DNA from: Candidatus Woesearchaeota archaeon
GTDB taxonomy: Archaea > Nanobdellota > Nanobdellia > Woesearchaeales > JAFGLG01
DNA length: 33,386 bases
Direction: 5' to 3'
NCBI GenBank assembly: GCA_016928155.1
Contig: JAFGLG010000014.1
Span: 1-33,386 of the forward strand
Shown: positions 1 to 15,500 of the stretch, piece after piece
Layout of the letters: the number at the start of each line of letters is the position of its first letter
Numbering within the stretch: the stretch's first letter is position 1
Notes under the pieces: generated by a model
Told to the model about the DNA's origin: nothing
The model's database searches: none
The model's input: only the letters and a program-made list of their open reading frames with translations
Position numbers and translations under genes: made by a program

Positions 1-2
1 AC

Positions 3-3000
3 AATAATGCGAGCATCTATCCGGGAGCACCAGAGATCCCTTATGATGGTATCGATCAGGACTGCGATGGTGCAGACCTCACAGATGCCGACAATGACGG
101 CTATGAAGCAGCAATAGTAGGCGGAACAGACTGCGATGACAACAATGCAGATGTGAATCCTGGAGCAGTCGAGATCCCATACGATGGTCTTGACAATGAC
201 TGCGATCCGGCAACGCTTGACGATGACCTTGATGGAGACGGATATGTCCTGGCAGATGACTGTGATGACCTGAACGCAAGCATCAACCCAGGCATGCCGG
301 AGATCCCGTACAACGGAGTCGACGACGACTGCAATGCATCAACACCAGACGATGATCTTGACAGTGACGGATACAACTCCACTGTCACAGGAGGGGATGA
401 CTGCAATGATTACAATCCTGACATAAACCCGGGCATGGCAGAGATACCATACAACGGCATCAATGATGACTGCAACCCGGCGACTGTCGATGATGATCTT
501 GATGGTGATGGTTATCTGCTCATTGATGACTGCAACGACCTGAACGCAAGCATCAACCCAGGCATGCCGGAGATACCGTACAACGGAGTGGATGACGACT
601 GCGATCCGGCAACACCGGATGATGATCTTGACAGTGACGGATATGATCTGGCTGATGACTGCAATGACAATGATCCGAATGTCAATCCGGGCATGGCAGA
701 GATACCATACAACGGCATTGACGATGACTGCAATGCATCAACACCAGACGATGATCTTGACAGTGACGGATACAACTCCACCATTACAGGCGGGGATGAC
801 TGCGATGATAACAATGCAGCTGTCTATCCCGGAGCTGTAGAGGTCTGTGATGGAGCGGATAATGACTGTTCTGGAACTGTTGATGACAATCTTGCACCTG
901 AACCTTGCGCTCTGCAGCATGGCATCTGCACAGGATCAGTCAAAACCTGCGGCGGTGTCCTGGGCTGGTTGGACTGCAATGCATCTGAGTATGGCCAATA
1001 TTATGAGGCTGGCGATGAGACATCGTGCGATGCCCTGGACAATGACTGCGATGGGATAATTGATGATGGCATCTTCCAGCAGTCTGGATCCAGTGATGTC
1101 GGCGAATGCTCATATGGTGAGATGATGTGCATCCTTGGTTTCTGGGTGAATATCACCATGCCTGTTGAGCCTGTGGATGAGACCTGCGATAGCTTGGACA
1201 ACGACTGCGACGGGCTGTTCGATGAGGACTTCGATAATGATTTTGACACTTACACAACATGCGGCACCAACACCACAACCGGTGATCCTGTTGATCCCGA
1301 TTGCAATGATCTGAATGCAAGCATCAACCCAGGCATGCCGGAGATACCGTACAACGGAGTCGACGATGACTGCGATCCGGCAACACTTGACGATGACTTG
1401 GATGGCGATGGATACAATTATACTGACGACTGCAACGACCTGAACGCAAGCATCAATCCGGGCATGCCAGAGATCCCGTACAACGGAGTCGACGACGACT
1501 GCAATGCATCCACATATGATGATGATCTTGATGGTGATGGTTATCTGCTCATTGATGACTGCGATGATTTGAATGCAAGCATCAACCCAGGCATGACAGA
1601 GATCCCATACAACGGAGTCGACGATGACTGCGATCCGGCAACACTGGACGATGACTTGGATGGCGATGGATATGATCACACTACAGACTGTGATGACACA
1701 GATCCTGAGATAAATCCTGGCATGATTGAAACATGCGATGGGAAGGACAATGACTGCTCTGGCACTGTTGATGATAATCTTGTTCCAGACCCTTGTCCTC
1801 TTCAGATGGGTGTCTGCGCAGGCTCCACTGAGATCTGCGGTGGTGTTCTTGGCTGGCTCGGATGTGATTCCTTGAGCTATGGCCCTGATTACGAGGCCGG
1901 CAATGAGACATCCTGTGATGCCTTAGATAATGACTGCGATGGTTCGCTGGATGAGTATATCTACAACCAGACAGGCGACACTGATGTAGGTGAGTGCGCT
2001 TATGGATACAATCAGTGCGTGGTCGGCAGTTGGTATGTCATACAGCTTCCTGTCAATCCTGTCCCTGAACTGTGTGATGGTCTGGATAATGACTGTGATG
2101 CATTGTTTGATGAGGACTTCGATAATGATTTTGACACTTACACAACATGCGGCACCAACACCACAACCGGTGATCCTGTTGATCCTGACTGTGATGATAC
2201 GGATCAGTCAGTGAACCCGGGAGCTGCAGAAATCTGCAATCTTGTTGATGATGACTGCGATGGACTAGTCGATGAGGATGGCTGTTCCTGCTCTGATAGT
2301 GATGGAGGCCTGAACTTCTCGGTTCAGGGCTCAGTTTCAGGCTATGGATGCCTGGATTCATCCTGCGGTGACATTGATGAGTCTGATTATTGTGACAATG
2401 GCAGCATTGTTGAGTATTACTGCATGCCTGACGGCCAGTTCAATGTGACAACATCTGATTGCCAGTGGGGATGTGAAGATGGAGCATGTCTCCCTCAGCC
2501 TGTATGCATAGACAATGATGGGGACAGCTATAATGGCTCTGAGAGCATAGGAAATTGCGGCATCATGGACTGCAATGATCATAATGCAACAATAAACCCG
2601 GGCATGACAGAGATACCGTACAACGGAGTGGATGATGACTGTGATCCAGCCACTTTGGATGATGATCTTGATGGTGATGGTTATCTGCTCATTGATGACT
2701 GTGATGACCTGAATGCAAGCATTAACCCGGGAGCAGCTGAGATCCCTTATGATGGGATTGATCAGGACTGTGATGGTGCAGACCTGACAGACGCCGACGA
2801 TGATGGCTATGACGCAGCAATAGTAGGAGGTACAGACTGCGATGACAATAATGCAAGCATCAACCCTGGAATGCCAGAGATCCCATACAACGGAGTGGAT
2901 GATGACTGCAATCCTGCGACATTGGATGATGACCTTGATCAGGATGGTTATAATTCCACAGCAACAGGAGGCACAGACTGCAATGACAACGATCCGGCTA

Positions 3001-4381
3001 TAAACCCGGGTGCAGCAGAATTATGTGATAATATTGATAATGACTGCAATGGTGTTGCTGACAACATACATCAGTCATGCTCTGTGAATTGGCAGGGTAT
3101 CTGTGCTGAAGGCCAGGAGACCTGCGTATCAGGCATCTGGTTCGGATGTCCGGCCCCTCAGGCAGAGACCTGTGATGGTATCTTGGATGAGGATTGTGAT
3201 GGCATTGTCGATGATGGATGCGAGTGCAGTGCTGGCGATACAAGGCCTTGTCCCATGCAGCAGGGAGTCTGCGCTGGTTCATTTGAATCCTGCGAGAATG
3301 GCGCTTGGCCGGGCTGTGGTTTGGATGAATATGGCCCACAGTATGAACCAGGAGATGAGACCATGTGCGATGCCTTGGACAATGACTGTGATGGCCAGTG
3401 GGATGAGGACATAACCCGGCAGACTGGCTCCACTGATGTAGGCGAGTGCTCTTATGGCCTCATGAGATGCGTAATAGGCTTCTGGATGAACATCACTATG
3501 CCTGTAGGCCCGGTTCCTGAACTGTGTGATGGTCTGGATAATGACTGTGATGCATTGTTTGATGAGGACTTCGATTATGATTTTGACACTTACACAACAT
3601 GTGGTACAAATACTACAACCGGTGATCCTGTTGATCCTGACTGCAATGACTATGATGCCACTGTCTATCCTGGTGCGCCTGAAGTTTGCGATAATCAGGA
3701 TAATGATTGTGACTCAGTGATTGATATGATCTCTCAGGCTTGTTCAGTGTCCCATTATGGCATCTGCGCTGTCGGCACAGAAATATGCGCAGCCGGTGTC
3801 TGGGATGGCTGTCCTGCGCCTCAATCAGAGATCTGCGAAGGTCTTGTTGATGAAGACTGCAATGGGATTGTCGATAACGGATGCCAGTGCACAATAGGCG
3901 ACACACAATCATGTCCGGTCCAGCTGGGTGTCTGCTCTGGAAGCACAGAGACCTGTGTTGATGGTGTCTGGCCTGGCTGTGTCGATGCTGATTATGGCTC
4001 AGATTATGAGCCTGGTGCAGAAGCTTCCTGTGATAACATGGACAATGATTGTGATGGCTCTGTTGATGAGTACATCTCTTATTCATTCGGCTCTGGGGTC
4101 GGTGAGTGCAGGGAAGGTGTCGCTACATGCTTCTTTGGCGTGTGGTACAACACTACAATATCTGTGGATCCTGCGCCAGAGGCATGCGATGGCAGGGATA
4201 ATGACTGCGATGGATTGTTTGATGAGGACTTTGATGCTGACAGCGATGGTTATACCGCTTGCGGCACAAGCCCCCTTGACGGCAGCTTCATAGGCATCGA
4301 CTGCGATGACAATGACGAAACAATCCACCCTGGCGCTCCTGAGCTTAATGACAATATCGACCAGAACTGCGTGAATGACGC
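3..4381 (+). repeat. Tandem coding repeats (MopE-type units, with DNA-level copies)
   Basis: The coding region is a mosaic of units of about 130 nt and larger modules of about 420 nt. The four larger modules lie at about 890-1310, 1790-2210, 3240-3650 and 3900-4310. Some stretches are identical at the DNA level: 1221-1297 and 2109-2185 match over 77 nt, and 3559-3635 is a diverged third copy. Identity at the third codon position points to recent duplication or gene conversion. Such a region can change copy number and can be collapsed in short-read assemblies. Confidence 0.85.
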
Positions 4382-5438
4382 TCCTACGCTGCAGGTCCAG
4401 GAGACCTACATTGTTACAGAAGGTGATCTTTTGCAGGTGATTGCGCTTGCTTTTGACACTGATGGCGATGAGGTCTTCCTGGCCTACGGTACTCCGTTGG
4501 ACGCGAACGGCACTTGGCAGACCGGCTTCAATGATGCTGGGAATTATAGTTCAAGCGTGACTGCTTCAGATGGCCAGCTCCAGGTGACAGCTTATTTCAG
4601 CATTGTTGTGCTTGAAACTGGGAATCATGCGCCTGTAGTTGGGCCTGTTGCTGACATCACAGTGTATGAAGGAGAAGTCGTGCAGGTCGCTGTTGATGCA
4701 TATGATCCTGACAATGATCCTTTGGTCATGTCTTATTCAGCTCCGCTGGATTCCAATGGTTATTGGCAGACTGGCTATACTGATGCTGGTGTCTATCCTG
4801 CGACTGTCAGTGTGACAGATGGCTCTGCTGTTGTGGTCAGGCAGTTCACGATAACTGTGCTTGAAGTTGGGAATCAGCCTCCTGTATTGGATGACCTCAG
4901 GGACATCTCAGTTTATGAGGGTGAGTTCGTGGATGTTGATGCCCATGCTTATGATCCGGAAGGCGCTCCTGTCACAATAGCTTACTCTGCTCCGCTTGAT
5001 GCAGATGGTGAGTGGCAGACTGCTAAAGGTGATATGGGAACATATATCATCACTGTGACTGCTTCAGACAGCAATCTGTCAGTCTCCAAGACATTCACAT
5101 TGACTGTCTCTGAGAAGCCTGTGGAAGCTGTGTATGTCGATGCCCTGCAGATCATCAATGAGGATTCTGTGCTTGATGACGGCGAGGTGGTGGCTCTTGT
5201 CAGATTCACAAATTCAGGTGACAAGGACATGAAGAATGCCAGGGTCAGGGTGACTTTTGACGAGACTGGCTACTCTTACAGCAAGAGCATAGACAAGCTG
5301 CCTGATGGCGAGTCAGAGGCTGTGATACTGCATATCCCGCTGCCGCATGATTTTGCGCCAGGCGTGTATACTTTGAGATTCACGATCTCGAATGATAATG
5401 TGCACAGGGTCAAGCACAGGGACTTTGCAGTCTATTAG
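3..5438 (+). CDS. Giant MopE-like metal-binding repeat protein with C-terminal Ig-like domains (5' partial)
   Basis: The frame is open from the first bases of the window to TAG at 5436-5438, so the true start and any signal peptide lie upstream. An apparent GTG start at 153 is only a Val codon inside a repeat. Up to about position 4380 the protein is made of Asp/Asn/Cys-rich units of about 43-46 residues with cores such as DDDLDGDGY, DDCDD and NPG..EIPYNGVDDDC. These match the putative metal-binding motif of the MopE type and resemble calcium loops. Four larger modules of about 140 residues, with extra cysteines, are interspersed. Residues encoded by about 4380-5110 form three cadherin/PKD-like Ig domains (repeated P.LD..G.WQT), and the last ~95 residues resemble a CARDB-type beta domain. 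No C-terminal anchor is visible. The likely role is an extracellular, calcium-stabilised surface or adhesin protein; the ligand is unknown. Confidence 0.85.
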   Translation, partial: NNASIYPGAPEIPYDGIDQDCDGADLTDADNDGYEAAIVGGTDCDDNNADVNPGAVEIPYDGLDNDCDPATLDDDLDGDGYVLADDCDDLNASINPGMPEIPYNGVDDDCNASTPDDDLDSDGYNSTVTGGDDCNDYNPDINPGMAEIPYNGINDDCNPATVDDDLDGDGYLLIDDCNDLNASINPGMPEIPYNGVDDDCDPATPDDDLDSDGYDLADDCNDNDPNVNPGMAEIPYNGIDDDCNASTPDDDLDSDGYNSTITGGDDCDDNNAAVYPGAVEVCDGADNDCSGTVDDNLAPEPCALQHGICTGSVKTCGGVLGWLDCNASEYGQYYEAGDETSCDALDNDCDGIIDDGIFQQSGSSDVGECSYGEMMCILGFWVNITMPVEPVDETCDSLDNDCDGLFDEDFDNDFDTYTTCGTNTTTGDPVDPDCNDLNASINPGMPEIPYNGVDDDCDPATLDDDLDGDGYNYTDDCNDLNASINPGMPEIPYNGVDDDCNASTYDDDLDGDGYLLIDDCDDLNASINPGMTEIPYNGVDDDCDPATLDDDLDGDGYDHTTDCDDTDPEINPGMIETCDGKDNDCSGTVDDNLVPDPCPLQMGVCAGSTEICGGVLGWLGCDSLSYGPDYEAGNETSCDALDNDCDGSLDEYIYNQTGDTDVGECAYGYNQCVVGSWYVIQLPVNPVPELCDGLDNDCDALFDEDFDNDFDTYTTCGTNTTTGDPVDPDCDDTDQSVNPGAAEICNLVDDDCDGLVDEDGCSCSDSDGGLNFSVQGSVSGYGCLDSSCGDIDESDYCDNGSIVEYYCMPDGQFNVTTSDCQWGCEDGACLPQPVCIDNDGDSYNGSESIGNCGIMDCNDHNATINPGMTEIPYNGVDDDCDPATLDDDLDGDGYLLIDDCDDLNASINPGAAEIPYDGIDQDCDGADLTDADDDGYDAAIVGGTDCDDNNASINPGMPEIPYNGVDDDCNPATLDDDLDQDGYNSTATGGTDCNDNDPAINPGAAELCDNIDNDCNGVADNIHQSCSVNWQGICAEGQETCVSGIWFGCPAPQAETCDGILDEDCDGIVDDGCECSAGDTRPCPMQQGVCAGSFESCENGAWPGCGLDEYGPQYEPGDETMCDALDNDCDGQWDEDITRQTGSTDVGECSYGLMRCVIGFWMNITMPVGPVPELCDGLDNDCDALFDEDFDYDFDTYTTCGTNTTTGDPVDPDCNDYDATVYPGAPEVCDNQDNDCDSVIDMISQACSVSHYGICAVGTEICAAGVWDGCPAPQSEICEGLVDEDCNGIVDNGCQCTIGDTQSCPVQLGVCSGSTETCVDGVWPGCVDADYGSDYEPGAEASCDNMDNDCDGSVDEYISYSFGSGVGECREGVATCFFGVWYNTTISVDPAPEACDGRDNDCDGLFDEDFDADSDGYTACGTSPLDGSFIGIDCDDNDETIHPGAPELNDNIDQNCVNDAPTLQVQETYIVTEGDLLQVIALAFDTDGDEVFLAYGTPLDANGTWQTGFNDAGNYSSSVTASDGQLQVTAYFSIVVLETGNHAPVVGPVADITVYEGEVVQVAVDAYDPDNDPLVMSYSAPLDSNGYWQTGYTDAGVYPATVSVTDGSAVVVRQFTITVLEVGNQPPVLDDLRDISVYEGEFVDVDAHAYDPEGAPVTIAYSAPLDADGEWQTAKGDMGTYIITVTASDSNLSVSKTFTLTVSEKPVEAVYVDALQIINEDSVLDDGEVVALVRFTNSGDKDMKNARVRVTFDETGYSYSKSIDKLPDGESEAVILHIPLPHDFAPGVYTLRFTISNDNVHRVKHRDFAVY

Positions 5439-5444
5439 CCCTTA

Positions 5445-5453
5445 AATTTTTTT
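5445..5453 (+). terminator. Probable T-tract terminator between convergent genes
   Basis: A short A run followed by seven T lies 7 nt after the stop of the repeat protein and reaches the stop codon of the minus-strand kinase gene. Archaeal RNA polymerase terminates at T tracts without needing a hairpin. The gap between the convergent genes is only 13 nt. Confidence 0.45.
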
Positions 5454-5940
5454 AATGTTTTTTCCTTATTTCCTTGAGAATTCTGTTCACTGTCTGCTCC
5501 ATTGTATTCTCTTCTGTGTTGATGATCACATCATGCTTTGTCGGTTTAACATACCCATGTATCCTCTTCACAATGCCGGGTCTGCGCTTCCCTGATCTCA
5601 TGTGATCCCTTTTCAGGGCTGTGTCGACACTGCAATGCAGGAAGAAGGAGTGCAATGTGTAACCGTATCTCTTCATGTGCAGCCCTAGTTTCTTCTTCAG
5701 GCTTTCTGCATTCATCTCCTGGACTAAGATGTTCTGCTTGAGTTTCATAAGCTCTTTTGCCATCATGTGCACAGCTTCCTTTGCTATCCTCTTTGCATTC
5801 TGCTTTCCTGCTCTCTGCAGGTGCTTCTTGATGTAAGCCCTGTCTATGAATGCATATGATTTCAGTTTCTTGTAGAGGATGTCGGCAATCGTTGACTTCC
5901 CTGCAGCCATGGGTCCGGTTATATTGAGAAGCTTAGGCAT
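5452..5940 (-). CDS. Small P-loop kinase (adenylate/cytidylate kinase-like)
   Basis: The 162-residue protein opens with a beta strand and a classic Walker A motif GPMAAGKST at residues 9-17. A basic LID-like segment (RDHMRSGKRRPG) follows at about residues 112-123. The length and layout fit small archaeal nucleoside or nucleotide kinases of the AAA_18/AAA_33 type, which move a phosphate from ATP to a small molecule or a nucleic-acid end in the cytoplasm. The substrate cannot be read from the sequence. The gene converges on the large repeat gene. An AT-rich TATA-like stretch lies about 30 nt before the ATG, and a GGAGG lies about 13 nt before it, rather far for a ribosome site. Confidence 0.75.
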   Translation of the reverse strand: MPKLLNITGPMAAGKSTIADILYKKLKSYAFIDRAYIKKHLQRAGKQNAKRIAKEAVHMMAKELMKLKQNILVQEMNAESLKKKLGLHMKRYGYTLHSFFLHCSVDTALKRDHMRSGKRRPGIVKRIHGYVKPTKHDVIINTEENTMEQTVNRILKEIRKKH

Positions 5941-6003
5941 GGCACATCTCTGGTCCTCCTGTTATTTAATTATTTTGGTCGTCACTGTTCACACATCCCA
6001 AAG

Positions 6004-6013
6004 TTTTATATAA
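6004..6013 (+). promoter_or_regulatory. TATA box for the gene at 6053
   Basis: TTTTATATAA is centred at about 6009. By archaeal spacing the transcript should start near 6035, giving a leader of about 18 nt before the proposed ATT codon, just enough to include the AAGGCGAT ribosome-site-like sequence at 6042-6049. Confidence 0.55.
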
Positions 6014-6052
6014 TCGGGCATCTTATCTCAAAAAAAGTCCCAAGGCGATACA

Positions 6053-6595
6053 ATTCCTGGCTACCTAGGCATAGATGAATCGAACCATGGACGTTTCCCG
6101 GAGTTCTACGTGTGCGTTTTTTCCACCAATCATAAGGATACCGAGTGCAACGGACATAGGTTCTCTAAGATCAAGAGCACAAGCACACCCATCCCGAATA
6201 TCCTTGGGCCTAACACTAACAGGGAATTCAGATATATCGAGGTTGATCATGATTACAAGCAGAGGTTCGGCCCCCATCGCATCAAGGTTGTTGCGATAGG
6301 GGAGTTCATCAGGGAATTCTCTGGTCTGGAGCTTTGTCTCTTTGATGGCGAACTCCAGCAGGTCTATCGTGATGAGTTGGCAAAGGCTGTTGGTTCCATG
6401 CCTGATTTCAGGTCAGAGAAGGGGGCTGATGTCCGTTACAGGCTGGTCAATCTTGCTGACCATATCGCCAGGATGATGTATAAGTATAGGACTGTGCAGA
6501 AGCTCTCTCATAATTTCAATCTGTATGATTCTGAGAGGATTGAGCCTGATCTTGATGCATGGCAGCATTTCTTCAGGAAGTTCAGGACAGCATGA
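6053..6595 (+). CDS. Unknown protein starting LGIDESNHG, probable ATT start
   Basis: The frame is open from 6014 to TGA at 6593-6595, with no ATG, GTG or TTG before the GTG at 6110. The sequence upstream of that GTG reads as real protein (YLGIDESNHGRFPEFYV) and runs smoothly into the rest, so the GTG is too late. ATT at 6053 is the best start: it sits 3 nt after an AAGGCGAT sequence and gives a 180-residue protein. The early strand with conserved-looking Asp and Glu recalls the first strand of RNase H-like folds, but this is only a resemblance. The C-terminal half is helical, with many Tyr, Arg and His. The family is not recognised and no function is assigned. A frameshift or sequencing error near 6050 is the main alternative to the odd start. 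Confidence 0.6.
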   Translation: MPGYLGIDESNHGRFPEFYVCVFSTNHKDTECNGHRFSKIKSTSTPIPNILGPNTNREFRYIEVDHDYKQRFGPHRIKVVAIGEFIREFSGLELCLFDGELQQVYRDELAKAVGSMPDFRSEKGADVRYRLVNLADHIARMMYKYRTVQKLSHNFNLYDSERIEPDLDAWQHFFRKFRTA

Positions 6596-6650
6596 ATCAA
6601 TGGATTGCATTTACTGATAATTGATTATTTACTTATTGATGACTGGTAAC

Positions 6651-6658
6651 ATTTAAAA
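6651..6658 (+). promoter_or_regulatory. TATA box for HIT gene (leaderless)
   Basis: ATTTAAAA is centred about 27 nt before the ATG at 6682. No ribosome site precedes that ATG. The spacing implies that transcription starts at or next to the start codon. Confidence 0.55.
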
Positions 6659-6681
6659 TGTCAGTATTTTCCCCTTGATTC

Positions 6682-7194
6682 ATGCAAGGGAATGATGTTT
6701 TCTGCACTCACTTGGAGCATTGGAGAGGGAATGGCCAGATGCTGTATGAATCTGGTCTGGCTTATGCCATTTTGAGCCCCACACCTATAACGCCGGGCCA
6801 TGTCCTTGTTGTCCCGCGGATGCATGCTGCAAAGATGGCTGATCTTGATGAGATGACAGGCAAGGCCATGTGGGATGCGGCTGAAGATGCATACAATGCT
6901 CTTATAGGAAGATTCTATTCAGGCAGGGAAGCGATGCAGGGATTGCATGATTTCTATGAAGGGCTCAGGGATCATCCCCCTAATGATCTGGGTATTGGAG
7001 AAAGGGCTGCAGGATGTTGCGAGGCCATGCTTCATGATCCGAGGTTGTATATTATCCCTGTCGGCTATCATTTTGGCGGCAGCGGCAAAGGTGTCCAGCT
7101 TACTGTCAGGGATCATGCGCATGCTCATCTTCATCCTATCAGGAAAGATATCAGCCTGTCTCAGGCACTTGCGAACTCTCCTGATTTCTACTAA
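6682..7194 (+). CDS. HIT-family nucleotide hydrolase/transferase
   Basis: The 170-residue protein has the N-terminal HIT signature SPTPITPGHVLVVPRMH (about residues 32-48). The C-terminal histidine triad is HAHAHLHPI, with His145, His147 and His149 in the HxHxHxx pattern; the middle His is the expected nucleophile. HIT proteins cleave or transfer nucleoside phosphates such as Ap4A, AMP-lysine or AMP-NH2 in the cytoplasm. An insert of about 45 residues (about 78-122) separates the two halves, so the protein is longer than the usual 110-140-residue HIT protein. It probably has its own promoter, and EndoQ follows after 33 nt under a separate TATA box. Confidence 0.85.
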   Translation: MQGNDVFCTHLEHWRGNGQMLYESGLAYAILSPTPITPGHVLVVPRMHAAKMADLDEMTGKAMWDAAEDAYNALIGRFYSGREAMQGLHDFYEGLRDHPPNDLGIGERAAGCCEAMLHDPRLYIIPVGYHFGGSGKGVQLTVRDHAHAHLHPIRKDISLSQALANSPDFY

Positions 7195-7197
7195 ACC

Positions 7198-7206
7198 TTT
7201 TTAAAC
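7198..7206 (+). promoter_or_regulatory. TATA box for EndoQ gene (leaderless)
   Basis: TTTTTAAAC begins 4 nt after the HIT stop codon and is centred about 26 nt before the ATG at 7228. There is no ribosome site, so the transcript is predicted to be leaderless. Confidence 0.55.
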
Positions 7207-7227
7207 AATTATTCATTATTCCAGGCC

Positions 7228-8487
7228 ATGGGGGAGCGCATAATATCTGACTTGCATATCCATGGACGTTTTTCCAGAGCCACTTCTAAACAGCTGGATT
7301 TTGTGAATCTTGAGAAGTATGCAAGATTGAAAGGCATAAATCTGCTTGGCACTGGTGACTTCACCCATCCGAAATGGCTTGGTGAGATAAGGTCGAATCT
7401 GAGCGAGGATGGCTCTGGGATCCTTAAGACAGGGTCTGGCTTTCATTTCATGCTCACTTCTGAGATTTCTCTGATGTACAGCCAGGATGGCAGGGGCAGG
7501 AAGGTGCATCTTGTGATCCTCGCCCCGGATCTTGGTGTTGTTGCTCAGATAAATGAATATCTTGGCAAAAAAGGCCGCCTGGATTATGATGGCAGGCCGA
7601 TCTTCGGCAAGCTTCCATGCGACATGTTTGTCGACGACATGAGGAGGATAAGCACTGATATTGAGGTGATAGCCGCTCATGTTTGGACCCCGTATTTCGG
7701 CCTTTTCGGCTCCATGTCTGGCTTTGATTCTGTTGAGGATGCTTTCAAGGACCAGTCAAAGCATATCCACGCTCTGGAGACTGGCCTGAGCAGTGATCCT
7801 GAGATGAACTGGCGTCTTTCGAAGCTTGACCGCTATTCTCTTGTCTCTTTTTCTGATCTTCATTCTTTCTGGCCCTGGAGATTAGGCAGGGAAGCTACGA
7901 TTTTTGATGCGAAGTTGGATTACAAGAGCATCCTCAGTGCGATAAGGAACAAGGAAATTGCTGAGACTATCGAGGTTGACCCGAATTATGGCAAATATCA
8001 CTTTGATGGTCATAGGGATTGCAAGGTCTGTCTGGAGCCAAAAGATACTGTGAAGCATAAGGGCATCTGTCCTGTCTGCGGAAAAAAGCTGACAATCGGT
8101 GTCCTCAACCGTGTTGAACAGCTTGCAGACAGGCCATTAGGCACCAAGCCAGAGGGCGCTGCACCATTCAGGAGATTGATTCCCTTGTCAGATATGATCT
8201 CTGCTCTCACTGGTTCTGCTGTCTCATCTCAGAAGGTCTGGAAGGTGTATTATGACTTAATCAAGAGGTTCGGCACTGAACTTGATGTCCTGCTGGATGC
8301 TCCTGAAGAAGAATTGAAGAAAGTTGTTGATGGTCCGCTGGCAGATTCCATAATCCTGAATCGGCATGGGAACATCAGGATCCTGCCCGGTTATGATGGT
8401 GAGTATGGTGTTCCTGTTCTGGGTGAGATGCCGAAGAGATCAGAATTCAGGCCCAAGCATATCCAGAAAGGATTATCTGATTTCTAG
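7228..8487 (+). CDS. endoQ: Endonuclease Q-type PHP-domain DNA repair nuclease
   Basis: The 419-residue protein matches the length and layout of archaeal EndoQ. That enzyme nicks DNA on the 5' side of deaminated bases (uracil, hypoxanthine) and some abasic sites. The PHP metal motifs are visible: SDLHIHGRFSRATS (residues 7-20, with Asp8, His10 and His12), GTGDFTHP (Asp44, His47), AAHVWTPYFGLFGS (about residue 150) and FSDLHSFWPWRLGREAT (about residue 210). A zinc finger C-x2-C-x12-C-x2-C follows at Cys265, Cys268, Cys281 and Cys284, then a helical C-terminal part. All expected elements are present, so the enzyme should be active. The name comes from recognising the family rather than from a search; the general class (PHP plus zinc finger) is certain. 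Confidence 0.88.
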   Translation: MGERIISDLHIHGRFSRATSKQLDFVNLEKYARLKGINLLGTGDFTHPKWLGEIRSNLSEDGSGILKTGSGFHFMLTSEISLMYSQDGRGRKVHLVILAPDLGVVAQINEYLGKKGRLDYDGRPIFGKLPCDMFVDDMRRISTDIEVIAAHVWTPYFGLFGSMSGFDSVEDAFKDQSKHIHALETGLSSDPEMNWRLSKLDRYSLVSFSDLHSFWPWRLGREATIFDAKLDYKSILSAIRNKEIAETIEVDPNYGKYHFDGHRDCKVCLEPKDTVKHKGICPVCGKKLTIGVLNRVEQLADRPLGTKPEGAAPFRRLIPLSDMISALTGSAVSSQKVWKVYYDLIKRFGTELDVLLDAPEEELKKVVDGPLADSIILNRHGNIRILPGYDGEYGVPVLGEMPKRSEFRPKHIQKGLSDF

Positions 8488-8523
8488 TTCTGAGAATTCT
8501 CTGCCTCTTTGTTTTCTCTGATT

Positions 8524-8595
8524 GAAAATCTTCAAGGATAAGGGCAAATTCGCGGTGCGAATTTGATGCGGCAAGATAAATTCTTGAAGATTTTC
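8524..8595. repeat. Nested perfect inverted repeats (possible structured RNA)
   Basis: A perfect 13-bp inverted repeat (GAAAATCTTCAAG at 8524-8536 and its complement at 8583-8595) encloses a perfect 9-bp hairpin (CAAATTCGC at 8545-8553, loop GGT, complement at 8557-8565). Neither strand shows convincing C/D or H/ACA box signatures, and there is no poly-T tail next to it. It lies in the 230-nt spacer between EndoQ and the Lys-rich gene. It could be a structured RNA, a processing signal for the EndoQ mRNA, or the trace of a mobile element. Confidence 0.6.
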
Positions 8596-8681
8596 CTGCT
8601 AAAGGTGCATCAAGGCACTGGATTAGGCGCTCAAGCAAGACTCAATCACACCACATAGAATTGCACGAATAACGTCGAGAA

Positions 8682-8708
8682 AAAAAGATGTGGCCCCGCG
8701 AGGGGCTA
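8682..8708 (-). terminator. Intrinsic-type terminator for the Lys-rich gene
   Basis: Arms at 8691-8697 and 8702-8708 form a 7-bp, G+C-rich stem with a four-base loop. On the minus strand the hairpin is followed by seven T (8682-8688). It begins about 9 nt past the stop codon of the 34-residue basic protein, so it should end that short transcript. Confidence 0.7.
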
Positions 8709-8716
8709 CGAGAAAA

Positions 8717-8821
8717 TTACTTTTTCTTCTTCTTTGCAACCTTCTTCTTTGCTTTCTTCTTGGTTGCCTTCTTCTTTACTGCTTTCTTTTTAGTTGCCTT
8801 CTTAACTTTCTTTTTTGCCAA
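8717..8821 (-). CDS. Small Lys/Ala-rich basic protein (34 aa), TTG start
   Basis: Reading the minus strand from TTG at 8821-8819 gives 34 residues beginning MAKKKVKKATKKKAVKKK and ending at TAA (8719-8717). The protein is almost entirely Lys, Ala, Thr and Val and resembles the basic tails of histone H1-like or HU-like proteins. A strong GAGGTG site 7 nt upstream, two upstream TATA-like boxes and a downstream terminator support a real, separately expressed gene. It probably binds nucleic acid as a charge-neutralising chromatin or RNA factor; this is inference from composition only. Confidence 0.65.
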   Translation of the reverse strand: MAKKKVKKATKKKAVKKKATKKKAKKKVAKKKKK

Positions 8822-8828
8822 TGCAATT

Positions 8829-8880
8829 CACCTCAAAAGGTTTGATTGATGTTTTTAAATCGTCGCTAGTATTTAAATAT
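8829..8880 (-). promoter_or_regulatory. Promoter and ribosome site of the Lys-rich gene
   Basis: On the minus strand GAGGTG (8834-8829) lies 7 nt before the TTG and decides that start. Upstream are ATTTAAAA-type boxes at about 8851-8860 and 8869-8880. The distal box would give a leader of about 30 nt containing the ribosome site, unlike the leaderless neighbours. Confidence 0.55.
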
Positions 8881-8881
8881 T

Positions 8882-9112
8882 TTCATTTTATCGCTTTTTT
8901 TCCGAAAATTTGCAAAAATTTTCTAAAAATTTCATTTTTTTGTCAGAATTTTTTTTATTTTCTGCAAAATTGGGTGTGATTCCAAAAAAATTTGTTGTTT
9001 TGTGCATCAAATGTCCATTTTCCGGTTTGTCGTCGGCAGATTTAGGGTGTTCTTGCATGGATTTTGCTTGGAAAACATGAAAAAATGCATGAAACTGGGA
9101 GATTCCTGCTGA
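8882..9112. other. AT-rich intergenic spacer, no gene seen
   Basis: This stretch between the Lys-rich gene promoter and the M50 protease stop is rich in short T and A runs. T runs on the minus strand near 9081-9086 could serve as a terminator for the M50 operon. A 33-codon ATG frame at 9011-9112 (+) has no promoter or ribosome site and is not called. Confidence 0.4.
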
Positions 9113-9682
9113 TCACGCAAGGAAGAAAGGGAAAAGCAGGACTGCAGCACAGATGATCATGCTGAAATAGACCGCCCGGTTCCATGCAAATATTTTTCTT
9201 CCGTCAAAATTGCCGAAAGGCAGCATGTTGAACAGCGCGAGCCATGCATTGATCTGTGTCCCGAAAAGCGCTATCGATTGGAGGATTCCTTGAGAGAAGA
9301 ATGATATGGCAAGGAAAATGACTGCGATCAATATGTTTGTGAGAGGCCCTGCCATCGATATCTTGCCGTTTCGCGCCTTATCAACATTTCCGTGTATCAG
9401 CACTGCCCCTGGCGCTGCAAAGAGGAAACCTGTGAAAGATATGATTATCGCAAAAAAGAGCATGCGGAAATCTGCCCGGTATTCTGCCCAGCATCCGTAT
9501 CTCTGGGCCACGAGCTTATGCCCGAGCTCATGGAAGACAAAGCCGGTGCCTACTGCCAGTGCGCTGTGCAGCAATGTGACAAGAAAGCCTTTTCCCGGAT
9601 CAAGCATCACTATGGTGAATGCCATTGTGATGGCAGCCCAGCTTATTGCAAGGTGCTTTATCTCTATGCCTGAGAATCTCAT
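9113..9682 (-). CDS. M50-type intramembrane zinc metalloprotease (site-2 protease-like)
   Basis: The 189-residue, strongly hydrophobic protein has the zinc motif HELGH (His51, Glu52, His55) in one membrane helix. A conserved GPLTN follows (Asn116), and the third zinc ligand is in NMLPFGNFDG (Asp160). This is the core of the M50/S2P family, which cleaves membrane proteins within the bilayer, often to release regulators. About five or six membrane segments are seen. The start is the ATG at 9682-9680, not an upstream in-frame one: it overlaps the TGA of the preceding gene as ATGA, and the extra 45 residues of the longer frame are not membrane-protein-like. It is compact, with no PDZ or CBS domain. 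Confidence 0.85.
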   Translation of the reverse strand: MRFSGIEIKHLAISWAAITMAFTIVMLDPGKGFLVTLLHSALAVGTGFVFHELGHKLVAQRYGCWAEYRADFRMLFFAIIISFTGFLFAAPGAVLIHGNVDKARNGKISMAGPLTNILIAVIFLAISFFSQGILQSIALFGTQINAWLALFNMLPFGNFDGRKIFAWNRAVYFSMIICAAVLLFPFFLA

Positions 9683-9912
9683 TTTGTCGTCGGTGATTTC
9701 TTCAGCTTGCTGACGATGTTGTTCTCTATGAAGAACCAGATGAAGAAGATTGTCACTGTAAGGACAAGCACATGCCTGAAGTTGAACTGATGGATTCCTG
9801 CCCAGTCCAGGAGCCACATGTAGAGTATTGAGAATACGCCGTAAAGGACTAGCCTGTAGAACACTGCCACGAAGATGATCTTTATGAGGTCTGATAGCTT
9901 CCTCTTTTCCAT
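9679..9912 (-). CDS. Small membrane protein, first gene of the M50 operon
   Basis: The 77-residue protein has a basic N-terminus, two or three hydrophobic helices (about residues 10-33 and 45-66) and a basic C-terminus ending KKSPTTK. No family is recognised. It overlaps the M50 protease by ATGA, so the two are translationally coupled and probably act together in the membrane, for example as a partner or substrate of the protease. The ATG at 9912 lies 26 nt from a TATA box, with no ribosome site, so it should be leaderless. Confidence 0.7.
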   Translation of the reverse strand: MEKRKLSDLIKIIFVAVFYRLVLYGVFSILYMWLLDWAGIHQFNFRHVLVLTVTIFFIWFFIENNIVSKLKKSPTTK

Positions 9913-9943
9913 GCCTATTATAATATAGGCCGGTTTTATAAAG
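9913..9943 (-). promoter_or_regulatory. Promoter and possible operator of the M50 operon
   Basis: On the minus strand CTTTATAAAA (9943-9934) is a good TATA box, 26 nt before the ATG. Between box and start codon lies an inverted repeat with 6-bp arms, GCCTAT (9913-9918) and ATAGGC (9925-9930), covering the expected transcription start. That position would suit a repressor; the repeat is short and may be chance. Confidence 0.5.
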
Positions 9944-10222
9944 TTATTATTGAAATATTTATTTTCAATATTGATATTATTTTGCTGGTGACTGGAAAAT
10001 CAGAAAAAGTTATACCTACATATTTGCAGAAGATGCAATTCTGTAAGATTTGTAGGGTTAACTGGATCAAGTATCAGAGGTTCTTGACAGTCCTTGTTAT
10101 TGTCCTGATATGATTATATGAATTCAAGAAGAAAAATGAGCATAGCCCAAAACCAGTATTGTCCTACAATATCTCAACGGGTAAAAGAAACGTGGGTTTA
10201 ACTCTAAGATTGTTTCTATAGG
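9944..10222. other. Gene-free spacer with a possible decayed reading frame
   Basis: No intact gene is seen. One plus-strand frame is open from about 9979 to TAG at 10219-10221, apart from a TGA at 10111-10113. It includes MQFCKICRVNWIKYQRFL from the ATG at 10033. It could be the remnant of a small gene, but in a sequence this short an open frame may be chance. Confidence 0.25.
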
Positions 10223-10398
10223 AATTTTAGGAAACTATAAATATAACTAACTAAAATTAAATAATATTAAATAAAAAATAGAGAAAATTAATAAAATAAA
10301 GTATATATTCCTGAATATATATTAAATAACTATATAAAAAACAATAACATTTATAAATAACTAATTAAAATAAAACAACTATCTTTAAAAAAGAAGGG
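10223..10398 (+). promoter_or_regulatory. Extremely AT-rich control region of the regulator-giant protein operon
   Basis: About 175 nt with very few G or C. It contains several TATA-like boxes (for example about 10331-10340 and 10350-10360) and a perfect inverted repeat of 9-bp arms, TATATATTC (10302-10310) and GAATATATA (10313-10321). A 19-nt direct repeat with two mismatches lies at 10243-10261 and 10357-10375, bracketing the region. GAAGGG lies directly before the ATG at 10399. The palindrome is a candidate operator for the winged-helix protein encoded next. Confidence 0.45.
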
Positions 10399-10914
10399 AT
10401 GCATTTGAAGGATTTCAGGCTGAAGATAATTGACCTGTTCGCTAAGGACCTCTCGCAAGACTTCACCATCCTCCAGATCTCCAAACAATTCAAGAAATCC
10501 TATTCTTTCATCAACAAGGAAGTCAGGAATCTTATCAATCAAGGAATCCTCAGGAAAAGGATTGTCGGCAACGCGATCCTATGTTCCCTTGATTTCTCTA
10601 ATCATCGCACCATACTCTATCTTGCATTGAATTCCTTTGAGAACAAGACAGAATCCCAGAACACTGATTTTGATGCATTGATTGAAGAGCTCCAGAAGCA
10701 TGATGTGATCCACTCTGTCTATTTCTCTGATAAGACTCTCTGCATAATCTGCGAGAATCAGGTGCGCGTCTCTCATTTTGTCCCTTATGATATCAAGTTC
10801 CTTGCTCTTGACAAGAGGCAGTTCCGCGAGCACATCAGGGAGCATCTGCTCAAGGATCCCCTCGTGCTTTCTGGTTTCGAGAATTTCTGGACATTGGTGG
10901 GTGATGCAAGATGA
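10399..10914 (+). CDS. Winged-helix DNA-binding regulator
   Basis: The 171-residue protein has a helix-turn-helix at about residues 20-50 (DFTILQISKQFKKSYSFINK), followed by a short wing and a Lys/Arg-rich turn (GILRKRIVGNAILC). This is an archaeal MarR/ArsR-like winged helix. The C-terminal half (about 88-171) is alpha/beta and may be a degenerate nucleotidyltransferase-like or ligand-binding domain, as seen in other archaeal winged-helix proteins; that part is inference. Its last codons overlap the next gene as ATGA, making it the first gene of the surface-protein run, and it may regulate its own AT-rich promoter. Confidence 0.7.
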   Translation: MHLKDFRLKIIDLFAKDLSQDFTILQISKQFKKSYSFINKEVRNLINQGILRKRIVGNAILCSLDFSNHRTILYLALNSFENKTESQNTDFDALIEELQKHDVIHSVYFSDKTLCIICENQVRVSHFVPYDIKFLALDKRQFREHIREHLLKDPLVLSGFENFWTLVGDAR

Positions 10915-11918
10915 AGAAGGCGCAGGTCACAATTTTCATTGTCATCGGACTGGTTGTGATAATCGCAGCTGGACTGATATTCTACATAAGGGGTCTCCAG
11001 CAGGAGGAGATAACTGCTGAGAGGGAACTCATGTTCGAAGCCCCTTATCAGGTCAGGCCGATACAGGAGTATGTGCAGCAGTGCCTGGAGGAGGTCACAG
11101 AAAGGAGTGTATATCTGGCCGGATCCAGGGGCGGAAGGATATACCCTGTCGGAGAATATCTTGACACAGGATACACGAACACCACTTATTATTATGATTA
11201 CGGAGAGGACAATAGCCCGTCTCTTGAAGAGATCGAGGCCCACATCGCAGTATTTGTCGAGGATAATCTTGACAGATGCTCCAACTTCAGTATTTTTGAG
11301 TCTCAGGGATTTGAGATTGAGACCCGCAATATTACAGCAAATGTGAGTGTTTCCTGGAATTCTGTCTTCTTCAGGATTTATTATCCAATAGAAATCAGAA
11401 AAGGGAATTCAGAATATTCCCTGCTTGATTTCGCGGATAGGGTACATATGCCATTTGGCATGGCATTCAACATATCCCAGCAGATACTGGAGATGGAATT
11501 CAGAGATCCGGATTATATTGATCTCAGCCTGCTTTCGCAGTTTGATGCAAATGTCACTGTAATCCCTCATGATGAGGAGAATGTCCTGTATTCCATCATC
11601 TGTGATGTCCCGGGACAGCAGCCTTTCAGCTACCTGTTTGCCAACAGGTTCGAATACAACAGTCCGCCGAGATTGAGCATTCCAGATACCTTGACACTGA
11701 CTGAGGATGTTGCTTTCTCTTACCAGGTCATTGCATCAGATCCTGACGGAGACAGGCTGACATATCACGACGACATTTCTATGTTCGATATCTCAGATAC
11801 AGGCATGATTGAATTCACCCCAGGGATACCGGGCGAGTTCGATGTCACGATAACAGTGCGTGACTCAAAAGGGAAATATGATCAAAAAGTTATGAAGGTG
11901 ATCGTCAATGAAAATTAG
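10911..11918 (+). CDS. Pilin-type-anchored extracellular protein with C-terminal Ig-like domain
   Basis: The 335-residue protein begins with a class III signal-peptide pattern: KKA before QVTIF, then a hydrophobic segment (about residues 5-27). Prepilin/prearchaellin peptidases cut such sequences before the Gln. The rest is extracytoplasmic, with an alpha/beta region and a cadherin/He_PIG-like Ig domain at about residues 249-335 (SDPDGDRLTY, then GEFDVTITVRD). It is translationally coupled to the regulator and overlaps the next small gene by 11 nt. It probably lies at the membrane surface, perhaps as part of a pilus-like or secretion structure serving the giant protein. Confidence 0.75.
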   Translation: MKKAQVTIFIVIGLVVIIAAGLIFYIRGLQQEEITAERELMFEAPYQVRPIQEYVQQCLEEVTERSVYLAGSRGGRIYPVGEYLDTGYTNTTYYYDYGEDNSPSLEEIEAHIAVFVEDNLDRCSNFSIFESQGFEIETRNITANVSVSWNSVFFRIYYPIEIRKGNSEYSLLDFADRVHMPFGMAFNISQQILEMEFRDPDYIDLSLLSQFDANVTVIPHDEENVLYSIICDVPGQQPFSYLFANRFEYNSPPRLSIPDTLTLTEDVAFSYQVIASDPDGDRLTYHDDISMFDISDTGMIEFTPGIPGEFDVTITVRDSKGKYDQKVMKVIVNEN

Positions 11919-12054
11919 GAAGATGTATGAGTTCATGGAGAAGCAGCCTCTTGAGGCTGTACGTGTCCTGAACAGGGGGAGTTATCACACAGGTGAGGAA
12001 TGGCAGGAGAAGAGCATCTACGCCTATATGGGCGAGAAGAAGATCCCTTCCTGA
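11908..12054 (+). CDS. Small unknown protein (48 aa)
   Basis: The ATG at 11908 opens a 48-residue frame starting MKIRKMYEFMEKQPLEAVRV and ending at TGA (12052-12054). It overlaps the end of the preceding gene by 11 nt in another frame and stops 9 nt before the next start. It is basic and probably mainly helical, with no signal peptide or recognisable domain. Its tight packing in the operon is the main support. Confidence 0.5.
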   Translation: MKIRKMYEFMEKQPLEAVRVLNRGSYHTGEEWQEKSIYAYMGEKKIPS

Positions 12055-12063
12055 GGTGCAAAG

Positions 12064-12237
12064 ATGAGCGCAAGACCTAAGCATCATGGAAGATATTATG
12101 GATTGAGTGCAGAAGAGATAATCGAAGGTTACATGGCAAAGATAGAGAATAAGGCCTTTGAAGCAGTCAAGTTCCCTAAAGAGGAGAAGAGGGACTATGA
12201 CCTCAGGGATGTGCTGAAGATGATGGAGGATATGTAA
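12064..12237 (+). CDS. Small unknown protein (57 aa)
   Basis: The ATG at 12064 follows a good GAGGTG site (12053-12058) at a spacing of 5 nt. It encodes 57 residues starting MSARPKHHGRYYGLSAEEII and ending at TAA (12235-12237). The protein is charged, with an Arg/His/Tyr-rich start and two likely helices; no domain is recognised. The ribosome site overlaps the stop of the 48-residue gene, so the two are coupled. It may be a small regulator or chaperone for the large surface proteins, which cannot be decided from sequence. Confidence 0.6.
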   Translation: MSARPKHHGRYYGLSAEEIIEGYMAKIENKAFEAVKFPKEEKRDYDLRDVLKMMEDM

Positions 12238-12396
12238 AAGGATATGCTCATCTCCCTGCATCTGACTGCCGATGGCGGTTGGGGGGTGGGCCAACAATCA
12301 AAGAATCAGAAGATAAGAAAAGAAAAAACATTGATCGGGCAAAAAACAGCGGGACCCCAAGCGTGTTGGGGCTAAACAAAAAGACAAAACAAGCAA
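12238..12396 (+). other. Leader of the giant gene with small hairpin
   Basis: There is no clear TATA box in these 159 nt, so the giant gene is probably read from the upstream operon. A hairpin of CCCCAA (12355-12360) with TTGGGG (12366-12371) lies 25 nt before the start codon and could affect translation or mRNA stability. A 43-codon frame at 12244-12375 has weak support and is not called. Confidence 0.4.
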
Positions 12397-12552
12397 ATGA
12401 ACAGGAACAACATCATCAGGAAAAGGGAAAGGAAGAGCATGTTTGAACTCATAGCTGCGCAGTTCAACCACAGGAACTTCTGCAGGTTCATGTCCCTCTT
12501 TATAATCTACCTGATGATATCGCTCACTTTCAATGTGTCATTAGCTTACGCT
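12397..12552 (+). other. Signal peptide of the giant protein
   Basis: Basic residues (RKRERK, then RNFCR) precede a hydrophobic core at residues 31-50 and an AYA cleavage site before Gln53. The 30-residue n-region is long; beginning at Met15 (12439) would shorten it to 16 residues. Confidence 0.8.
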
Positions 12553-15500
12553 CAAAATGAGGCAACCGAAGCCATAAAATCTGAGGATCCAGTTGAAGGA
12601 TGCGTCAAGAACCCCTCATCATGCGATTGGAACTCCTTAAGCCAGGAAGATTTGCAGAGGGTTCTTGCAGCTGACGCCCTTGATATCAATCAGATACCCC
12701 CAGATATTATTCTCGCGAATATTGACGCTCTGGGAAGCCGTGTGAACCAGCTTAAGAACTATGAAGCATTCCAGAATCCTGCTGATCTGCAGAAACTCCT
12801 GAACTATCTGGATGCGAGCAGGATTCCTGCGCTGACAGGTGATCAGATTGACAATGCATTGAAGGGTCCGCCTCCTGGAACACTCAGGCCTGATCAGCGG
12901 GCAAGCCTCAACTCAGGCCAGCTGGCAACAGGTGATGTGATCTCCAATCTCGGCGACATGTCTACAGAACTTGCCAATCCTGCTTTCCAAAGCCAGCTAA
13001 GCGCAGCATTGAAGAGCAAATTTGGCCTTGGTTTTGATGTTGATTTCTCTGAATATTCAGGAGACAAGTTCAGGGTTGATTCAAATGGGATTGTGAGCCA
13101 TTGTGATCATGCGAGATGTGATACTATCGATCTGAATTCATTGAGATCACAAAACCTCAAATCCGTGAATATCGTCACTGTAGGCACAGGGGAGCACGGC
13201 AAAGAACATGGATTCACGCTTGTTACCAAGAAAGAAGAAATCAGGATAACAGGTTCATCTGATACAGGTTTCAGTATCACTGGGATGGTCGATGGTAAGG
13301 CTGTTACTGAAATGAATGGTGAGACTCTTAATCTTGGAGGAGGCTCTTACACAATAACCGGCTGTGACACCGCAACAAATACATGCACAATAGCATTGAC
13401 AGATGGAAGTACTGTCGGCTATGATGGGATCAGCATGAAGTGCAAGGAAGCTGAATGCTCCTGGACCCTGACAACTTACACAGATGGAAGCGTGGACGTC
13501 GCCATGACTGGACAGCAGCAGGTATCTTCCACAAATCCAAAATATCAGGACTTGAGCGCAAGCGCATTTCAGGATGGCAGCATAAGTTTAGGATTAGGGA
13601 AAAATGTCAATGGCTACAGGGATATCCTGAGCATATCCGGCACAAATGCGCATCTTGATTATGCATCAGTAGACTCCCTGAAAGATGAGACTCTCAGGCT
13701 TGATGGCAGTTTCATATTGAATCTTGACGCAAATGCCCAGCCTGTTGATCTTGACTTGATTGGCAGGAGCTCATGGGCTTCAGTGGGGGATGACAGGATA
13801 GGTGGAGAATCAACTCTTTATTCGGAGAACAGGTTCGGTGCTGAAGATATCAACAGGAAAATCATCTTCCAGGGAGGCGCCCCGACCACGCTTCAGGAGA
13901 AAGAGAGGACTCTGAAGGAATATGATGAGCGCAGGAGAGAGCTGATTGCACAGCTCGGCACTGAGGATCACCATGAAGTTATTGCCTTGGACAACAAGAT
14001 ACACAATCTTCAGAAGGATTACGATCTTGAATACCAGAGATTCCTTGCTGATTATCCAGGTTATGCTGGCGTCGCATATATAAGCATGGTGAGCACAAGG
14101 GACAGGTCACTTGAGAGATATGAGAATGGACAATATACCTGGAAAGATAGTGATGCTAATCACATAAGGGTTATGTCAGTCGGTGACAATTATTTCCAGG
14201 TCAAGGATGAGAGGGTCTGGGCAGGTCCTGGAGTGATTCAGGGCATTGATCCTTCAGGAGCAGGCAGCATGTTCAGCACCATCACTCCGACCTCTTATGT
14301 AGAGAATGACTTCGATTTTGCCCATGTCTGGAATAAAGTTCTGGTGGACGGCAGAGAGATAGAATTTGAGAATAAATATCACAAGGACAGTGATGGGGAT
14401 TATCATGCAATGATGGGGACTCCTGATCTTCCTGCCAATGCCAATCTGGACATGCCCACTTATTTCAGGGTTCTTGGCCCTGTCACGAGGACAAAGACAG
14501 TGAATGCTGATGGGGTCATTGAGTATGGCCAATGGCAGTCAGGAGTGTTCTATGTCGACCCATTGACAGTTGAGATAGCTCATTTCCTTGGGGAAGGTAA
14601 GGATTATGTCTCATTGGCAGAGGTAAATGAGGAGAGAGAATATGAGATAAGGCTATTGAATGTATTGGCTACACCGGGAGGGAAGGCCCTGGTCGACCAG
14701 ATACAGGGAATTTCTGACAGGTGCAAGACGCGCTCTTGCAGAAAGAACCTTGAACCGATCCTGGCAGGATTCAGCACAGATATTAAAGCGAATCAGCTTC
14801 TGGGTAATATTGACAAGACAACAGGCCTCTACCAGAAGCAGCTCACTCTTGGTGAAGGCCTGCGTCAGGTTGATTTTGATGCGCTGAAGACGATTGGTGA
14901 TACCAAGTTTGACGGATTCTGGACAAGCAAGAGGCATACGACTGAAGCGCATGATCTTTTCAGGGATACAAAGAATATGCTGGATCTCATTGATAGTATT
15001 GCAGGCAGGGAATATGGCGAAATAAATTTCTATTTTGGGCACAACAAGGATGATGCAGCTGCCATGGATCTCACTGTCAAGACACTTAGGGAACTTGGTG
15101 ATCTCAGGCAGGCTGCTGGTCTGATGACTGATAAGAGTTACGATAATCTGTTTGACAAGAACAGCCAGCAGTACACCCTTGATCTCGGCCAGATATACAG
15201 CGATCTTTATGGCCAGACAAAGGACCTTTTCATGACAGATGCGATGAGGAAGGAGGGGGAGAGAGGATATCTCGATAAGGCTGCTGAAATGTTTAGTAAG
15301 CTCACAGATCCGGTGCAAAAAGGCTGGCAGCTCGGCAACCTGTACAATACCGCAAGCCAGTATGATAAGGCGCTGCAGAACTATAATGATGCGCTGAAAG
15401 GAGCACAAGGTGATTCGAGGAACGCCATTCTGCAGTCAATGGCACAGGCTTATCTGAACAAGCAGGGATATAAGAGTGAGGGTATCAACAGTTATGGTGA

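Follow-up and report, generated by a model that had tools for sequence, protein, structure and literature searches.

The window analysed here is a whole contig of 33,386 nt from an archaeal host genome (G000; 1.48 Mb, 99.7% complete), and it carries a Lys/Ala-rich open reading frame of only 34 codons. Such a frame raises two questions, namely whether it is a gene at all and, if it is, what a peptide of this composition would do. We refer to it as the K gene and to its product as the K peptide.

Organization of the K-gene unit

The K gene lies on the minus strand at positions 8717–8821, begins with TTG and ends with TAA. It is located between the gene for endonuclease Q (EndoQ; plus strand, 7228–8487), which is its convergent neighbor, and an M50 peptidase ORF identified by a profile match (minus strand, 9113–9817), which is its upstream neighbor on the same strand. 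The initial annotation described a miniature transcription unit with two TATA-like boxes, a GAGGTG, a TTG start, a 34-residue frame and a hairpin followed by T7, and every one of these elements was found, on the minus strand. By sequence pattern, the first TATA-like box (AATATTTAAATAC, 8881–8869) is located at −56 relative to the start and the second (GATTTAAAAAC, 8861–8851) at −38, and the GAGGTG ribosome-binding site occupies positions 8834–8829. Transcription directed by the second box would begin at or inside the ribosome site, so the box at −56 is the likelier promoter and the one at −38 is probably not the promoter in use. The 3′ end of the unit is terminator-like, with a GC hairpin and T7 (8709–8680) in which the stem GCCCCTCGCGGGGC spans 8706–8693 (8709–8690 in its extended form) and the T7 run spans 8686–8680.

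The product, MAKKKVKKATKKKAVKKKATKKKAKKKVAKKKKK, contains 22 lysines in 34 residues (∼65% lysine), is restricted to K, A, V and T and has no acidic residues. The frame is not a chance product: the real window contained one ORF of at least 20 residues of which at least half were lysine, and none was present in 40 Markov shuffles.

The window has other features besides the K gene. A nested inverted repeat (8524–8594), with an outer stem of 16 pairs and an inner stem of 9–10 pairs, is located between EndoQ and the K gene; its fold z-score is −3.3 on the plus and −4.1 on the minus strand, and partial look-alikes occur elsewhere in the genome (the best with 85% identity over 32 bases). It is possibly the EndoQ end or a small repeat element. 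A single open frame of 6464 residues occupies 12397–31791 on the plus strand, and positions 3–3002, part of an ORF at 3–5438, match PF11617, ‘Putative metal-binding motif’ (Cu-binding_MopE), in 15 stretches (E 5.8e-148).

Recurrence of K genes in related genomes

A protein search with the 34-mer in 60 drawn relatives returned no match beyond the K gene itself, because the low-complexity sequence scored poorly, and DNA patterns succeeded instead. None of the 60 relatives belonged to the family of the host, so the conservation described below is that seen in other families of the order. The repeat pattern KKK.xKKK.xKK was present in 107 of 335 genomes of the order and a reversed control pattern in 11 of 335 (as read from the table); the 30 loci that were fetched included 11 stand-alone K-rich genes, the remainder being tails on larger proteins or unrelated frames. 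A start-anchored pattern matched 32 of 336 genomes, with no matches for its control, and of its 36 places, 17 were stand-alone genes of the plain K-rich kind, 18 encoded longer proteins or Cys-tailed ones, and one (G348) was left unread.

The search for similar small Lys-rich genes in related genomes that the initial annotation had suggested thus yielded 38 comparable stand-alone loci in the order, which consist of 36 genes set out first and two found beside EndoQ (L064 and L102). Loci duplicated between sets were counted once (L029 is G317, and L032 is G315), the first of the two K genes of L219 was used in the set of 36, and the set leaves out the genes of G257:C92, which ends in CCCCSC, and G033, which ends in CRCC. 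The encoded peptides range from 8 to 115 residues, the shortest form in the order being MAKKKKKK, and their length differs even among close relatives: 58 residues in G315 and 14 in G317 of the same genus, and 36, 8 and 11 residues in G085, G094 and G095 of one family. Very short forms are also present in other orders of the class (MAKKKAKKKAKKKR in G362 and MAAKKKKKAKKR in G391). Among the 36 genes of the first set, the start codon is ATG in 30 and TTG in 6, a TTTA[AT]A motif is found at −36 to −75 in 27 (6.6 expected from shuffles), and GAGGT lies within 20 nt of the start in 34, many of which were found by a pattern that itself contains GAGGT. Absence of a conserved frame or ribosome site in relatives had been set beforehand as the outcome that would speak against the gene; the frame, start and ribosome site in fact recur in other families of the order.

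Codon comparisons of close pairs point to coding-type, purifying-type substitution, with synonymous and non-synonymous differences of 5 and 0 (G067/G019), 13 and 2 (G067/G066), 15 and 4 (G110/G114) and 14 and 4 (G114/G115). Distant pairs are less one-sided (32 and 15 for G064/G065, 21 and 17 for G184/G188, 6 and 5 for G139/G142). These numbers are support and not proof, since the alignment of low-complexity proteins itself favors synonymous matches to some degree.

The host genome contains a sister gene of 56 codons, in which the tail AVKKKATKKKAKKK, of the same KKKA type as the K gene, follows a small domain. The two genes differ by eight synonymous and eight non-synonymous codons. The near identity of the tails would suit a K gene that arose from a larger protein with a lysine tail, by decay or by copying of that tail, and that has no function itself. 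We regard this as highly improbable: the K gene has its own promoter, ribosome site and terminator, genes of its kind recur with synteny across families, and their codons change in a purifying-type manner. The proposal of the initial annotation that a stand-alone basic protein had been overlooked is supported by the recurrence, the synonymous excess and the synteny, and the K gene is probably a real but unannotated micro-gene for a nucleic-acid-binding peptide. The length range of 8 to 115 residues, the recurrent EndoQ neighbor described below and the second KKKA-tailed gene of the host are points that the initial annotation did not contain.

KKKA tails were also observed in small proteins, behind a motif similar to KVGVKKxxGYLYFIDKxGDVSRAKMARGGK that occurs once or twice. 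One is encoded at L003:1384-1554 (G000:C5), and others are present at L116, L117, L121, L123, L125, L126, L145, L146, L154, L157, L158, L160 and L166. Pfam scans of two members gave no family match, and the one compared with the PDB had no match better than E 0.29. These proteins are a possible chromatin or RNA protein family.

The hairpin 3′ end

In a terminator scan of window positions 1–20000, which returned 21 sites compared with a shuffle mean of 13.7, the K-gene hairpin ranked first and was the sole site with 5/5 GC pairs; its fold z-score is −2.28. The GC stem and U run are those of an intrinsic (hairpin-U) terminator, and termination at this site is a prediction. A hairpin end, scored as a GC stem with a T-rich stretch after it no more than 120 nt from the stop, was found at 15 of 38 K genes and, among the other ORFs in these loci, at 3 of 262. 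In a control drawn more strictly and more widely, it was present at 8 of 294 unit-end ORFs, one of the eight being the K gene of L083. The hairpin is present in all nine EndoQ-linked K genes, that of the window included, and in 6 of the remaining 29.

According to the available text of PMC8716108, archaeal terminators are U-tracts that mostly lack a hairpin. Taken together with its rarity at the control ORFs, this indicates that the earlier remark that a hairpin terminator is unusual for archaea was right for this group of genomes, and that the hairpin is a trait of the K gene. That the gene so clearly favors a hairpin 3′ end in genomes whose other genes seldom do poses a further puzzle, which concerns archaeal termination or mRNA stability.

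A 3′ structure of this kind could also mean that it is the RNA that functions, with a short K-rich frame that is either incidental or regulatory, particularly as the hairpin is kept at EndoQ-linked loci while the peptides shrink to 10–18 residues, and as some leaders fold better than shuffles. We consider this reading quite improbable, given that close K-gene pairs show the synonymous excess, that stem sequences vary between lineages while the peptide composition stays constant, that the leader in the window is no better folded than shuffles (z 0.2) and that an Rfam search of the window gave no match. A conserved leader hairpin, which inspection of several relatives had suggested, was rejected as a general feature, as fold z-scores are mixed among relatives. 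Inverted repeats of differing sequence are located between the promoter and the ribosome site in L205, L206, L083, L221 and L222 (fold z −1.0 to −2.8), and they are absent in the window.

Genomic neighborhood of K genes

The EndoQ of the window, a PHP and zinc-ribbon protein, matches PDB 5zb8 (Pfu EndoQ; E 1.7e-49) and TIGR00375, and is closest to sequences from MAGs named Nanoarchaeota, Nanoarchaeia and Woesearchaeota, which places the host among the Woesearchaeota-type DPANN archaea. EndoQ is convergent with the K gene, 73 to 1242 nt beyond it, in 7 of 36 K loci. In the reverse count, a K gene was detected in 5 of 80 EndoQ loci (peptides of 10, 14, 18, 58 and 114 residues) and in none of the other 75. 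By a hand estimate, ∼0.4 would be expected if each 1.2-Mb genome had one randomly placed K gene (509,183 bases in the 80 loci). The loci with both genes total nine, as L029, L032 and L083 are common to both counts, and in L064 the K gene is on the same strand as EndoQ. An EndoQ tree with 84 rows requires six changes, at least four of them forced, to accommodate the nine K-linked rows, so the linkage is not confined to one recent clade. This fits an old association with many later losses or breaks, although several of the contigs stop a short way past EndoQ.

No neighborhood is universal among the K-gene loci. An M50 peptidase gene, located upstream in the window, is found ∼80–110 nt downstream of the K gene in G085, G094, G095 and G270. 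Genes for DNA replication, repair or topology account for 8 of 40 immediate K-gene neighbors (Nth, EndoQ, DNA ligase, topoisomerase I twice, PolB, RFC and TatD) and for 1 of 30 control ORFs, a Mrr-type nuclease (one-sided Fisher p 0.04). These counts cover the 40 of 46 neighbors and 30 of 43 control ORFs that were scanned, with labels assigned non-blind and lineages that are not fully independent. Ambiguous cases, namely DHH and PLD proteins and, in the control set, two AP_endonuc_2 TIM barrels, were excluded; the EndoQ entry, for which Pfam gave no match, took its label from its BLAST cluster. In the f20 genomes, the neighboring genes encode a PLD-domain protein and another, unnamed one, and show no clear link to DNA. 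The enrichment of DNA genes beside K genes is weak.

Relation to linker histones and other basic proteins

The 34-mer matched no Pfam family at E ≤ 1 and no NCBIfam family, and a sequence search of the PDB returned no match. The likeness to histone H1 proposed in the initial annotation therefore applies to composition and does not extend to family membership. Like the H1 C-terminal tail, which the available portions of PMC6136690 and PMC9239181 describe in these terms, the K peptide is Lys/Ala-rich (22 of 34 residues are lysine), of low complexity and expected to be disordered and charge-driven. Unlike H1, it is archaeal, 8–115 residues long and stand-alone. Because it lacks the globular winged-helix domain and matched neither Pfam nor NCBIfam models, the K peptide is, judged by its sequence, not a member of the linker-histone family, and its resemblance to H1 would at most lie in a tail-like mode of working. 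According to the available text of PMC6136690, archaea have yielded no linker histones homologous to H1.

The bacterial H1-like proteins AlgP, PhaF and the Burkholderia hist_H1_lk_Burk family (NF038053) are, like the K peptide, prokaryotic and possess a Lys-rich repeat domain, which in AlgP binds DNA (PMC9239181, available text). However, they have extra domains or KPAA-type repeats, whereas K peptides consist of KKKAx repeats only and reach no family score: the curated score of NF038053 was reached neither by the 34-mer nor by a 114-residue relative, whose match was at chance level (E 0.48; 10.6 bits compared with a cut-off of 80). Another comparable protein is WP_019177984.1 of Methanomassiliicoccus luminyensis, a lysine-rich candidate nucleoid-associated protein of 74 residues in the available part of PMC7613761. 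It is likewise small, basic and archaeal, although from a different lineage, and the two are likened by description only. Our working definition of archaeal nucleoid-associated proteins asks for small size, basic charge, abundance and enrichment in the nucleoid, and the K peptide has the first two of these properties. In literature searches outside subscription journals and preprints, such a gene was not described in the title or abstract opening of any paper listed.

Chromatin setting and proposed function

The host genome contains one histone match (G000:C9:150519) and one Alba match (G000:C5:31037), both folded domains whose sequences are unrelated to the K peptide and which are its presumed co-residents in chromatin. 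Histone matches were found in 32 of 34 K-positive and 31 of 39 K-negative genomes (Fisher p 0.09), and Alba matches in 28 of 34 and 37 of 39, respectively; G141 was omitted from both lists, and the histone match of G011 is below the cut-off and has an internal stop. The K gene is not a mark of histone-poor genomes, and its role as a histone replacement was rejected. The counts instead suggest that it adds to histone–Alba chromatin.

With 22 lysines and no acidic residues, the K peptide is expected to be unfolded and to bind polyanions through its charge. Our preferred reading, which we rate just short of an even chance, is that it is a disordered polycationic peptide, most likely DNA-condensing or DNA-bridging in the manner of an H1 tail. 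The K gene would be transcribed from its own archaeal promoter, translated via a strong ribosome site and closed by the hairpin-U end. The predicted disordered peptide would bind nucleic acid by charge alone, with DNA as the most likely target, and would neutralize and bridge the DNA that lies between stretches covered by histone or Alba, so that it alone would do the job of the H1 C-terminal tail. As such binding would need charge and not shape, the peptide would be free to shrink to MAKKKKKK or to grow to 115 residues, with promoter, start and 3′ end remaining constant as its length changes. The length tolerance, the constant promoter and 3′ end, the single-gene units and the proximity to DNA genes all fit an H1-tail-like peptide that neutralizes and bridges DNA.

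Counting against DNA as the target, poly-lysine binds DNA no more readily than it binds RNA, rRNA and polyphosphate. As charge alone does not choose between polymers, the main rival is an RNA-directed polycation, i.e. a micro-protein on rRNA or mRNA that assists ribosome assembly or stabilizes the ribosome, which we consider somewhat unlikely. Its size and charge would be suitable, and eL41 is a ribosomal protein of comparable size and charge. However, the spread in length, even within one genus, is unlike that of a fixed ribosomal subunit, and the 34-mer matched no ribosomal family of Pfam, that of eL41 included, at E ≤ 1, a search in which a profile can miss short biased sequences. Some K-gene neighbors are translational (L37ae, Trm1 and TP_methylase), but genes of this type are no commoner there than in the controls, which include CysRS, TRM5, NMD3 and RTC. 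A binder of polyphosphate or another polyanion, or a polyamine-like charge buffer, is improbable. Very short forms such as MAKKKKKK do resemble a bare polycation, and AlgP, a protein with an H1-like C-terminal part, is located on polyphosphate granules (PMC9239181, available text), but no polyphosphate gene was present among the scanned K-gene neighbors.

If the DNA-bridging reading is taken further, the linker-histone substitute of Woesearchaeota-type DPANN would be the tail alone, an encoded polylysine of free length, expressed from a histone-mRNA-like message with a 3′ stem-loop and tied to base-repair and replication genes; we hold this extended form to be unlikely. If true, a tail-only linker substitute would be among the smallest chromatin proteins known and would open archaeal chromatin compaction to testing with synthetic peptides. 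Archaea are described as being without linker histones in the available text of PMC6136690, and a conserved tail-only gene would show linkers arising as bare polycations. More generally, the K genes show that in DPANN genomes a recognizable promoter, ribosome site and terminator can accompany genes of as few as eight codons, which is below the usual limits of annotation and profile searches.

Other K-rich micro-proteins were observed at L011, L012, L184, L189, L197, L250, L251 and L017. They have a K-rich beginning and end in a cysteine motif, which is CPFC, CEFC, CRCC, CCCCSC or CSCGSGK...CC, the last of which we take to resemble the SEC-C zinc motif.
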